Shown one piece after another: positions 34,944 to 64,000 of a stretch of 64,000 bases of DNA; within the stretch, counting starts at the first letter, position 1; every line of letters begins with the position of its first letter. The stretch covers positions 2,968,001 to 3,032,000 of the forward strand of contig NZ_OX216966.1 in the NCBI RefSeq assembly GCF_945605565.1, given 5' to 3'. This DNA is from Paenibacillus dendritiformis. Lineage in GTDB: Bacteria > Bacillota > Bacilli > Paenibacillales > Paenibacillaceae. The notes under the pieces are model-generated. The model ran no database searches. It was given only the letters and a program-made list of their open reading frames with translations, and was not told the DNA's origin. The position numbers and the translations under genes are program-made.

Positions 34944-34972
34944 TTGACAAGAATAAACATCTATGGGAATAT
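34944..34972 (+). promoter_or_regulatory. Candidate promoter of the second biosynthetic cluster
   Basis: TTGACA (34944-34949) with a 17-bp gap to GAATAT (34967-34972), in an AT-rich 249-bp gap before the first gene of the cluster. The -10 is weak. A second option is ATGACA (34984) with GATATT (35007). Confidence 0.35.
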
Positions 34973-35081
34973 TGTTTCTGCGTATGACAAAAAGTAGAAA
35001 ACAGACGATATTGAAGAAAATTATATTATGTTTCATGTTTTTACATAATATTCAATTTAATCAGAGAGGTGGCTTGCCGGT

Positions 35082-36107
35082 TTGGGTGTCAAGGAACTGG
35101 AACTCGTCATTCCGCCCATTGTTGGGTATCAGTATGTGGCCTACCCCCTATGCACGGCGCTCGCCCGCGAAGAGGCGCTGCCGTGGTTCTACAGCAATTT
35201 CATTCACCTTTATTGCCATCAGGATCTGGAAGGAGAACGCGCTTCCCAATCCGTGCCGCTCACATTTTACGGCGAGGATTTCATGCGGTGTCCGTGGCTG
35301 ATTACACAAAAACTGGAACGGGAATTCGTGCTTGATTCACAGCCGGGAATTGTCGAATTTTTGGTAAATAGTATCAATTCGGGTTATACGATTTCTCTCT
35401 ATGTCGACGAGTTCTATATCCCCCGCAGACGCGTGTACCGCCAGATGCACTACGCCCACGATATTCTGGTCTACGGGTACGATGACGGCAAGAGGGCCTT
35501 CTTCGTGCTCGGCTATGACGAGGAGATGCAGTTCCGCAAGACGCTCGTCCCGTTTCATGAAATGGAGCAAGGTTTCCAGCATCTCGAATGGACGGACCGC
35601 TACGAAGAGCAAATCTATTTGTACAAATTCAATAGAGCGGGAAGCTACAGCCTCGATCCCGCATTCATCCAAGAATCGCTGGAACAATATCTTTCCGGCT
35701 GCGATGTCTCCCGGCCCCGCCGGGGAACGGCCGATCCGTTGGATCTGGCCTTCGGCGTCAACGTATATCCCGCATTAATCCGCAATATGCCGGCCCTGGT
35801 GCGCAAACGCGATATCAGGCCCATCCACATTTTGTGGGAGCATAAAAAAACGATGGGAATGCGCATCGATTATTTATGCGGGCGCCAGCTTCTTGCACCG
35901 GCATTTATGGGGTGCTTCCGGCCGATAGAAGAGCGAGCCTTGACTCTGCGGCATGTGCTGATGAAGTACGCCTTGACCGGGGATGATGCCGTTCTGAACA
36001 AAGGAATCGACGAGATGACTTCTCTTATGGACAGCGAAAAGCAGATCCTGGAGTCCGTCGCGGAAGCGCTGGGACACCGTATTGCTCCTCAACCATCCGT
36101 AACTTAA
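35082..36107 (+). CDS. BtrH-like protein (papain-like fold), first gene of amicoumacin-type cluster
   Basis: 341 residues. The N-terminal half resembles the BtrH_N family: a conserved Cys24 in YPLCTALAREE, then YAHDILVYGYDDGKRAFF with His126, giving a possible Cys-His pair as in C39-like peptidases or the butirosin acyltransferase BtrH. The C-terminal half is helical and unassigned. The TTG start lies 9 nt after AGAGGTGG. It ends 4 bp before the NRPS gene, so it is in the operon. BtrH itself moves an acyl chain from an ACP to an aminoglycoside, so an acyl-transfer or release role on carrier-bound intermediates is possible. This gene is not part of the shared core of the amicoumacin, xenocoumacin or zwittermicin sets as I recall them. 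Confidence 0.65.
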   Translation: MGVKELELVIPPIVGYQYVAYPLCTALAREEALPWFYSNFIHLYCHQDLEGERASQSVPLTFYGEDFMRCPWLITQKLEREFVLDSQPGIVEFLVNSINSGYTISLYVDEFYIPRRRVYRQMHYAHDILVYGYDDGKRAFFVLGYDEEMQFRKTLVPFHEMEQGFQHLEWTDRYEEQIYLYKFNRAGSYSLDPAFIQESLEQYLSGCDVSRPRRGTADPLDLAFGVNVYPALIRNMPALVRKRDIRPIHILWEHKKTMGMRIDYLCGRQLLAPAFMGCFRPIEERALTLRHVLMKYALTGDDAVLNKGIDEMTSLMDSEKQILESVAEALGHRIAPQPSVT

Positions 36108-62808: not shown

Positions 62809-62821
62809 AAGGGGCGGTAAG

Positions 62822-64000
62822 ATGAGTGCTGCGAACGGAATGTACGAAGGAACCGGCCTGGAAATCGCCGTGATCGGCATGGCAGGACGATTCCCCGGAG
62901 CCAAGAACCTGGCCGAATTTTGGGCCAACTTGCGCGACGGCGTGGAATCGGTCACTTTCTTTACGGATGAAGAGTTAAGGGAGGCGGGGATCGGGCCCGA
63001 ACTGCTCGAGCATCCTCAATACGTAAAGGCAAAGGCGATGCTGGAGGATGTGGAATCCTTCGATGCGCCGTTTTTTAACTATTCGCCGCGGGAGGCGGAG
63101 CTGGTCGACCCTCAGTTCCGGCTCTTCCATGAATGCTCGTGGGAGGCGCTGGAGGACGCGGGGTACACTCCCGACACTGACGGAAAATTAATCGGCGTGT
63201 ATGCGGGGGCTTCGCCCAACACCTATTGGGTCGCCAACCAGATTATGAGCGCCGCCCATGCCAGCGATCATTTTCAAATCTTGCAATTGAACAATCCGTC
63301 GTTCACGACGCGGATTTCCTATAAGTTGAATTTGAAAGGCCCCAGCGTGAGCGTGCAAACGGCCTGCTCCACCTCGCTCGTGTCTATTCACCTCGCCTGT
63401 CAGGGCTTGCTGGGGGGCGAATGCGATCTTGCTCTGGCCGGAGGCGTGTCGATTAATTTGCCGCGCATCACCGGATATCTGTATCAGGAAGGCATGATCC
63501 AGTCGCCGGACGGCCATTGCCGGCCCTTTGACGAAGGAGCCAACGGCACCCTGTTCGGAGACGGCATCGGGATCGTCGTGCTGAAGCGGCTGGCTGACGC
63601 CCTCGCGGACGGCGACACGATCCATGCCATTATCAAAGGGTCGGCGATCAACAATGACGGCAGCCGGAAGGTCGGCTATACGGCGCCAAGCACGAACGGC
63701 CAAGTCGAGGTCGTTCGGGCCGCCCATCACATGGCCGAGGTGGATCCGGAAAGCATCGGCTATATCGAAGCGCACGGCACGGGGACGGCGCTCGGCGATC
63801 CGATCGAGGTGGAGGCGCTGCAGCTTGCCTTTGCCACGGAGAGAACCGGTTTTTGCAAAATCGGATCGCTCAAATCCAACATCGGCCATCTCGACGCCGC
63901 CGCCGGAGTCGCCGGCTTCATCAAAGCCGTGCTGGCGCTCAAGCATAAGCAGATCCCGCCGAGCCTTCACGTTCAGCGTCCGAACCCGAAAATCGATTTT
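62822..64000 (+). CDS. Type I PKS, N-terminal ketosynthase, truncated by window end
   Basis: The frame is open from ATG 62822 to the last base (393 codons). It is an intact KS as far as it goes: IAVIGMAGRFPGA, active Cys182 in TACSTS, HGTGTALGDPIE, SNIGHLDAAAGVAG. It lies 13 bp after the previous PKS. It should be the next chain-extension protein; the number of further modules and the release step are outside the window. Confidence 0.95.
   Translation, partial: MSAANGMYEGTGLEIAVIGMAGRFPGAKNLAEFWANLRDGVESVTFFTDEELREAGIGPELLEHPQYVKAKAMLEDVESFDAPFFNYSPREAELVDPQFRLFHECSWEALEDAGYTPDTDGKLIGVYAGASPNTYWVANQIMSAAHASDHFQILQLNNPSFTTRISYKLNLKGPSVSVQTACSTSLVSIHLACQGLLGGECDLALAGGVSINLPRITGYLYQEGMIQSPDGHCRPFDEGANGTLFGDGIGIVVLKRLADALADGDTIHAIIKGSAINNDGSRKVGYTAPSTNGQVEVVRAAHHMAEVDPESIGYIEAHGTGTALGDPIEVEALQLAFATERTGFCKIGSLKSNIGHLDAAAGVAGFIKAVLALKHKQIPPSLHVQRPNPKIDF

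Follow-up and report, generated by a model that had tools for sequence, protein, structure and literature searches.

A predicted amicoumacin-family pathway of Paenibacillus dendritiformis with a putative aliphatic side chain and a C-FkbH-PCP tail

The window analysed here is a stretch of 64,000 nucleotides (bases 2968001-3032000) from the genome of Paenibacillus dendritiformis, which consists of 6.72 Mb in one contig, and the flanks were read past position 64000. Its right-hand part carries the ami genes for a hybrid assembly line of nonribosomal peptide synthetase (NRPS) and polyketide synthase (PKS) modules. With a probability of about 0.8, these genes form an amicoumacin-family pathway, complete by sequence, the product of which is predicted to resemble the ribosome-blocking antibiotic amicoumacin but to have an aliphatic side chain of the baciphelacin/PM-94128 kind. 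The gene content and order, the domain order, the active-site motifs and the adenylation codes were read directly, and from them we infer the amino acid, the folding, the export and the activity as follows. AmiA would make the acyl-D-Asn “cap”, and AmiI would add a probably aliphatic amino acid together with one hydroxymalonyl unit, which is reduced to give a 2,3-dihydroxy-4-amino acid. AmiJ would add Leu as an amide, and AmiK, AmiL and AmiM would add four malonyl units (with ketoreductase, without, with and without) that fold into 8-hydroxy-3,4-dihydroisocoumarin. The inactive prodrug would be exported, and AmiB would remove the acyl-D-Asn at the membrane. Because the family is known, the surprise is moderate; the changed residue, an extra cassette and, most of all, the unexplained tail of AmiM deserve closer attention. 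If the assignment is true, it supplies genes for the old isocoumarin antibiotic class with aliphatic side chains.

The cluster was colinear with that of Bacillus inaquosorum KCTC 13429 over amiA, amiB and amiD-amiM, with protein identities of 35-67% (AmiA 42%, AmiB 41%, AmiD 43%, AmiE 66%, AmiF 67%, AmiG 65%, AmiH 58%, AmiI 44%, AmiJ 35%, AmiK 47%, AmiL 48%, AmiM 49%). Eight comparison regions were used, with their open reading frames (ORFs) aligned to the cluster; an ORF on the opposite strand at amiE here hid AmiE in the pairing. Paludifilum halophilum gave the same gene-by-gene match at 42-78% identity, and the four Paenibacillus relatives compared were 56-100% identical. The closest relative among those compared was P. 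dendritiformis G25-126, with 96-100% protein identity in the ami genes (94% for amiI) and 98.5% DNA identity over 20.9 kb of the amiM region; the latter region was 95% identical to Paenibacillus sp. 2.1 and 83% to P. apiarius. The parts covered of two papers state that AmiA-M of KCTC 13429, which serves as a reference strain in the published comparison, share >97% identity with their counterparts in 1779, a known producer (PMC5055758), and that the ami cluster of 1779 was captured and expressed (PMC4894447). Most cluster domains scored >100 bits in the Pfam/TIGR profile scan, so chance matches are not an issue for the domain calls. The genes and the segments discussed below are as follows, on the scale of the window; the first gene starts 138 bases downstream of 34944, where the preliminary description of the window had set the start, and the megasynthase extends about 13 kb past the window edge.

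35082..36107, + strand: BtrH_N-like protein, first cluster gene (PF14399 25.5 bits, cut-off 29.7; hhalign probability 91 to AmiC; invariant Cys absent)
36112..40611, + strand: AmiA, condensation-adenylation-peptidyl carrier protein-epimerization (C-A-PCP-E), putative acyl-D-Asn loading module (Pfam; code DLTKIGEVGK; 42% to B. inaquosorum AmiA)
40608..42161, + strand: AmiB, ClbP-type S12 prodrug peptidase (PF00144 226 bits; ClbP E value 2e-56; S101, K104, Y195, T197, N265, N337, and Q98 at ClbP position 92)
42162..42893, + strand: AmiD, type II thioesterase (PF00975 154 bits)
42897..43751, + strand: AmiE, 3-hydroxyacyl dehydrogenase (3HCDH) for hydroxymalonyl-acyl carrier protein (ACP) (PF02737, PF00725; 66% to B. 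inaquosorum)
43696..44829, + strand: AmiF, FkbH, which probably starts near 43765 (TIGR01686 271 bits)
44835..45086, + strand: AmiG, ACP (65% to B. inaquosorum AmiG)
45090..46271, + strand: AmiH, acyl-ACP dehydrogenase of the acyl-CoA dehydrogenase family (PF00441, PF02770, PF02771)
46276..55479, + strand: AmiI, C-A-thiolation-ketosynthase-acyltransferase-ketoreductase-ACP-C (C-A-T-KS-AT-KR-ACP-C), predicted to add the amino acid and hydroxymalonate (Pfam; code DAFIIAGVFK; AT GYSFGE..ATAGHS, not the malonyl signature; KS Cys-His-His)
47776..51985, + strand: AmiI patch from the A core to the AT, a probable homologous replacement as judged against P. dendritiformis G25-126 (5-25% synonymous differences in bins of 100 residues)
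55476..58136, + strand: AmiJ, half-C, A(Leu), PCP (Pfam; code DAWFLGNVVK)
58075..62808, + strand: AmiK, KS-AT(malonyl)-KR-ACP (Pfam; motifs)
62822..~70654, + strand: AmiL, KS-AT-ACP-KS-AT-KR-ACP, 2610 aa (Pfam; the window ends at 64000)
~70651-77127, beyond the edge: AmiM, KS-AT-ACP-C(HN)-FkbH-PCP, 2158 aa (Pfam; FkbH by TIGR01686)
After AmiM to ~80220, beyond the edge: cassette of BpsA, GNAT, FkbH and ACP

The preliminary description had named an acyl-D-Asn module, an S12 peptidase with three membrane helices, a complete hydroxymalonyl-ACP set without an O-methyltransferase, the C-A-T-KS-AT-KR-ACP-C order, a Leu module and PKS modules behind it, and each of these was recovered at the position listed above. 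The hydroxymalonyl-ACP set of 3HCDH, FkbH, ACP and acyl-CoA dehydrogenase occupied 42897-46271, and no O-methyltransferase domain was found in the cluster genes scanned. In AmiA, the E domain was read from the second Condensation-family stretch, and the code DLTKIGEVGK was present in nine of nine regions, including B. inaquosorum and B. safensis. The hydropathy of AmiB showed an N-terminal hydrophobic stretch and three C-terminal ones near residues 391-421, 435-454 and 460-505, which were read as helices from hydropathy only, the last one being long. When AmiB was aligned to ClbP, S101, K104 and Y195 fell on the catalytic places (S95, K98 and Y186 of ClbP), and Thr, Asn and Asn stood at ClbP positions 188 (T197), 257 (N265) and 331 (N337). 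According to the portion consulted of the ClbP study, N331 is strictly conserved in putative prodrug peptidases, position 188 is Ser or Thr and position 257 is His or Asn, with Asn at position 188 in the wider S12 family (PMC9889268). AmiB thus shares with ClbP the SxxK motif, the Tyr, Ser/Thr at 188, His/Asn at 257 and N331, and its sequence agrees with that published for N-acyl-D-Asn prodrug peptidases.

The modules behind AmiI fitted an isocoumarin. The AmiJ code DAWFLGNVVK, which points to Leu, was present in all five Paenibacillus clusters. The C domain of AmiJ itself was only a C-terminal half (profile 189-456), which the preliminary description had left unmentioned; AmiI already ends with a full C domain, and AmiJ was 886-915 aa long throughout the nine regions compared. 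From the KR domains in Pfam, the four polyketide extensions that follow Leu were called reduced, not reduced, reduced and not reduced. Formation of an 8-hydroxy-3,4-dihydroisocoumarin turns the carbonyl of Leu into the alcohol of the lactone and requires loss of the third keto group, and the order of KR, none, KR, none is, as read from the domains, the reduction pattern of a dihydroisocoumarin tetraketide. The non-reducing modules that an isocoumarin needs were thereby found in the continuation past 64000. Four ATs carried the malonyl-type motif GHSxGE...HAFH, and the AT of AmiI was divergent (GYSFGE...ATAGHS), similar to that of B. inaquosorum AmiI (GYSFGE...IAAHS). The Cys-His-His of all five KS domains was kept. 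A Paenibacillus version of the amicoumacin pathway, as first proposed, was therefore supported by the colinearity with the reference cluster, by the reduction pattern and by the residues of the peptidase.

The variable residue of the scaffold was read from the A domain of AmiI. Its code here was DAFIIAGVFK and that in four other Paenibacillus was DAFLIGAVIK or DAFLVGAVIK, which together give DAF[LI][IV][GA][AG]V[IF]K. At this place, the Asn code DLTKIGEVGK stood in two Bacillus and in Paludifilum. Activation of Asn by AmiI was therefore not supported by this sequence-based prediction. The apolar code also speaks against Arg, the amino acid of xenocoumacin. The earlier assignment to an amicoumacin/xenocoumacin type thus stood for the family; the product itself should be neither amicoumacin nor xenocoumacin, because the AmiI code is not that of Asn and probably not that of Arg. 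The nearest outside A domains, taken from ten proteins out of 120 listed, were of the Val-type DAFW[IL]GGTFK kind, for example module 2 of GrsB, to which the A domain of AmiI was 56-57% identical, as against 39-42% to the three other GrsB modules (the GrsB modules take Pro-Val-Orn-Leu). The AmiI residue is thus predicted to be aliphatic, of the baciphelacin/PM-94128 kind. A protein of P. thiaminolyticus (P0123) was 92% identical to AmiL, and baciphelacin is a product of Bacillus (now Paenibacillus) thiaminolyticus, an origin not stated in the literature passages checked; a cluster gene in this species fits a product of the baciphelacin kind. Baciphelacin, PM-94128 and Y-05460M-A have aliphatic side chains. 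In the literature passages covered, these isocoumarins are grouped with amicoumacin, and no gene cluster is assigned to them there.

The AmiI code differed between the strain of the window and G25-126. Between 47776 and 51985, AmiI showed 5-25% synonymous differences from G25-126 per 100-residue bin (the share of differing codons among those that keep their amino acid), compared with 2-3% in amiA, amiJ, amiK, amiL and amiM; the first 100 residues of AmiI, outside the described patch, also showed 16%. The simplest reading is a replaced segment that would have changed the substrate pocket. Import of a foreign A domain was considered and rejected, because the A domain retained 85-88% identity with its counterparts in P. 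dendritiformis and P. apiarius, and homologous replacement fits better. If true, this suggests that recombination between close strains swaps the variable residue of the scaffold.

Several observations weigh against the predicted pathway and product. DAFIIAGVFK is not known to match any established code exactly, and A-domain codes predict imperfectly, as the AmiJ of Bacillus reads DAQDMGNVQK though Leu is used. The best match of AmiB in the PDB was Flp (E value 2e-61), ahead of ClbP (2e-56), and Gln (Q98) replaced the usual Glu at ClbP position 92, where AmiB and ClbP differ. This Gln was present here and in P. dendritiformis, with Glu in the other seven of the nine compared; the E92Q mutant of ClbP kept D-Asn cleavage and gained D-Asp cleavage in the portion consulted of PMC9889268. 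Finally, the product could carry groups absent from the known amicoumacins, put on by the downstream cassette and the FkbH tail.

The tail of AmiM contained a gap between C and PCP that was blank in Pfam and proved to be FkbH (a partial fragment scored 233 bits with TIGR01686, above the cut-off of 146.65). A survey of the tail covered 121 proteins, namely the AmiM of this cluster and 120 listed of the 1262 relatives of its C-FkbH-PCP end. The C domain beside FkbH carried HNxxxDG in 23 of the 121; wherever else both motifs could be recognised, it carried HHxxxDG. Normal condensation is not expected of a C domain that lacks the second catalytic His. The C motif was inspected in 18 of 76 loci (L013-L030), and each of the 17 named ami-type loci among them (L013-L029), which come from Paenibacillus, Paludifilum, Bacillus and Tengunoibacter, had HN. 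In a tree of the 90 C-FkbH stretches with both motifs recognised, the 23 HN rows stood on one side of a single branch (SH-aLRT 99, by a quick method). The module was retained in relatives only about 42% identical, FkbH scored 265-290 bits with TIGR01686 in four distant HN members, and its DxDxT motif was kept in 22 of the 23 HN proteins.

AmiC of Bacillus was BtrH_N-like (27.1 bits, below the cut-off of 29.7), and its Cys29, Asp113 and His127 were invariant in nine AmiC sequences. An AmiC-like domain was found at the C-terminus of four HN proteins (P0055, P0057, P0064 and P0097; E value 3.1e-55 or better with an AmiC profile), directly behind the last PCP at the usual place of a thioesterase. 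P0052, longer than its kin, gave no AmiC-like match with this profile. In the parts seen of PMC5055758, the Xenorhabdus bovienii cluster has no amiC and its AmiL-M has 3419 aa, 1240 aa less than AmiL and AmiM of B. inaquosorum together (4659). Judged from this published length, the C-FkbH-PCP tail is probably missing in X. bovienii; no protein named Xenorhabdus AmiL-M was among the 120 listed of 7998 matches. The absence of amiC together with the shorter AmiL-M in X. bovienii suggests that the tail and AmiC come and go together. Because of this pairing and of the AmiC-like domain fused behind the last PCP, we suggest that the C(HN)-FkbH-PCP tail and AmiC form an unusual “release station”, in which FkbH would load a glycolytic C3 unit onto the last PCP, the carrier on which AmiC, a papain/C39-like enzyme of the BtrH type, would act.

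Some results speak against such a station. No AmiC was fused in 19 of the 23 HN proteins, AmiC-like domains also occurred in two other C-FkbH proteins (at the C-terminus of P0041 and the N-terminus of P0016), and Val replaced the Thr of DxDxT in one FkbH of the HN clade (P0058). The Paenibacillus BtrH-like protein at 35082 was remote from AmiC (hhalign probability 91) and may not be a working AmiC, because it has no invariant Cys; a comparison with the PDB gave no relative better than an E value of 0.86. Our combined proposal is accordingly a tentative one, somewhat short of even odds: the Gram-positive amicoumacin-type lines would release the chain without a thioesterase domain through the HN-type C domain, FkbH and AmiC, Xenorhabdus would do so otherwise, and here the role of AmiC would have passed to the diverged BtrH-like protein, with a product of the baciphelacin kind. 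If true, this overlooked end-piece of a well-known assembly line is a testable case of thioesterase-free release. No paper with “amicoumacin” and “FkbH” together was found in the open-licence literature, and no description of the tail was found in the text parts of PMC4894447 and PMC5055758.

The terminal C-FkbH-PCP might instead be a working extension module that esterifies a glyceryl or related C3 unit to the chain end and makes the product longer than an isocoumarin. The FkbH scores well above the cut-off here and in the four homologues, the HHxxxDG kept in other C-FkbH-PCP modules and the conserved Ser of the terminal PCP in AmiM agree with this. We consider it unlikely, as the second catalytic His was Asn in all 23 members found, and Bacillus with an equal tail makes amicoumacin, for which no such unit is reported in the literature passages covered.

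Amicoumacin A (with Asn) or xenocoumacin (with Arg) itself as the product is quite improbable. The gene order and the D-Asn cap code are shared with the amicoumacin cluster, but the five Paenibacillus AmiI codes stand against the Asn code of the two Bacillus and Paludifilum. There is similarly little reason to expect a silent or decaying cluster without a product. The recombined patch in AmiI could be taken as a sign of it, but the synthase genes were open, the KS, KR, carrier and peptidase motifs checked were intact, and the proteins were nearly identical to those of G25-126. Moreover, the ami-type C domain was found in 9 of 392 genomes drawn evenly across the order, that of the window included (E values of at most 1.5e-152, with 1.9e-114 for the match that came next). 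A line of the zwittermicin, paenilamicin or colibactin type with an equal prodrug trick is very improbable, since the acyl-D-Asn and S12 peptidase held in common, and a P. profundus region that may correspond to this cluster and that the accessible part of PMC12698334 reports as called only “zwittermicin A, low” by antiSMASH, are set against a Leu module and, behind it, four PKS modules ordered as for an isocoumarin and colinear with ami.

The Paenibacillus clusters also differed from those of Bacillus in genes behind amiM. The kinase AmiN, encoded next to amiM in Bacillus and Paludifilum (76% identity to B. inaquosorum in B. safensis and 60% in Paludifilum), had no match in the five Paenibacillus regions. 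A move of AmiN elsewhere in the genome was rejected: the best relative was 29% identical with an internal stop and the next four were 27-28% identical, none an ortholog. A BpsA-like protein, GNAT, FkbH and ACP stood after amiM, all four in 10 of 10 Paenibacillus genomes examined. A BpsA_C gene lay about 3 kb downstream of the ami-type C domain in nine of the nine genomes with that domain, and was above the cut-off anywhere in only 48 of the 392. Among 20 other BpsA loci (from about 40 strong ones), one free-standing cassette had all four genes (L135, 6073-9097) and one had three (L140, 6216-9244); neither showed a KS, A or C match over the 17 kb covered. The BpsA-like protein matched N4-bis(aminopropyl)spermidine synthase (E value 2e-23) and kept GDDDL. 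SpeD-family genes, tried as support for BpsA activity, were present in 9 of 9 ami-type genomes but also in 8 of 14 controls; they permit this activity and do not support it. In the passages available of PMC5055758, AmiS of X. bovienii is an N-acetyltransferase of 152 aa that acetylates amicoumacin A. By analogy, the GNAT may take the part of AmiS, perhaps using a C3 acyl group that FkbH would load onto the ACP. Further downstream lay an alkaline phosphatase with 39% identity to AmiO. Of the 10 Paenibacillus ami-type clusters examined, 9 had a LamG and DMFA2_C protein of 771 aa (L010, 577-2892) downstream of the cassette.

Two further loci were noticed. Another NRPS-PKS cluster lies at window positions 40-18126. 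It has two acyltransferases that stand alone, two ABC transporters, a 3077-aa KS/KR/C hybrid in which no AT was matched (trans-AT type) and an A-PCP protein whose code, DILQMGLIWK, is Gly-like. A second AmiA-like protein (47%) in FJAT-26967 (G394, C1:1969783-1974267) perhaps belongs to another acyl-Asn prodrug cluster.

For Paenibacillus with amicoumacin or isocoumarin, no such cluster was found described in the open-licence passages covered. The passages seen of PMC7909086 contain an antiSMASH mention of xenocoumacin that may touch this cluster type, and the one in PMC7789753 concerns a trans-AT cluster, probably another one; the network in the portion consulted of PMC9889268 includes “ami-like” clusters. 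Among characterised systems, amiA-O of B. inaquosorum KCTC 13429 and B. subtilis 1779 had amiA, amiB and amiD-amiM in the identical order, with an AmiJ of equal length that aligned over its full length, a C domain of AmiM that was also HN and, in P0093, a protein listed under B. inaquosorum, an FkbH tail scored by TIGR01686. In contrast to B. inaquosorum, AmiI here is not of the Asn type, the region has no AmiN ortholog, AmiC is replaced by the distant BtrH_N-like gene upstream, and BpsA-GNAT-FkbH-ACP and the DMFA2 protein are added downstream. Paludifilum halophilum DSM 102817 (L023, L107-L109), with an Asn-type AmiI and AmiN, is a predicted amicoumacin producer. Tengunoibacter tsumagoiensis (L029, L113-L116) has an ami-like line with a Ser-like code (DVWHWSLVDK, in the protein paired with AmiI), a Thr-like code, a 1030-aa peptidase protein and an AmiM-like protein that ends in a fused AmiC, and is a probable new relative with other residues. 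The xenocoumacin xcn and X. bovienii ami clusters have in common with the present one the acyl-D-Asn prodrug, the hydroxymalonyl genes and homologous NRPS/PKS genes, as described in the parts seen of PMC5055758.

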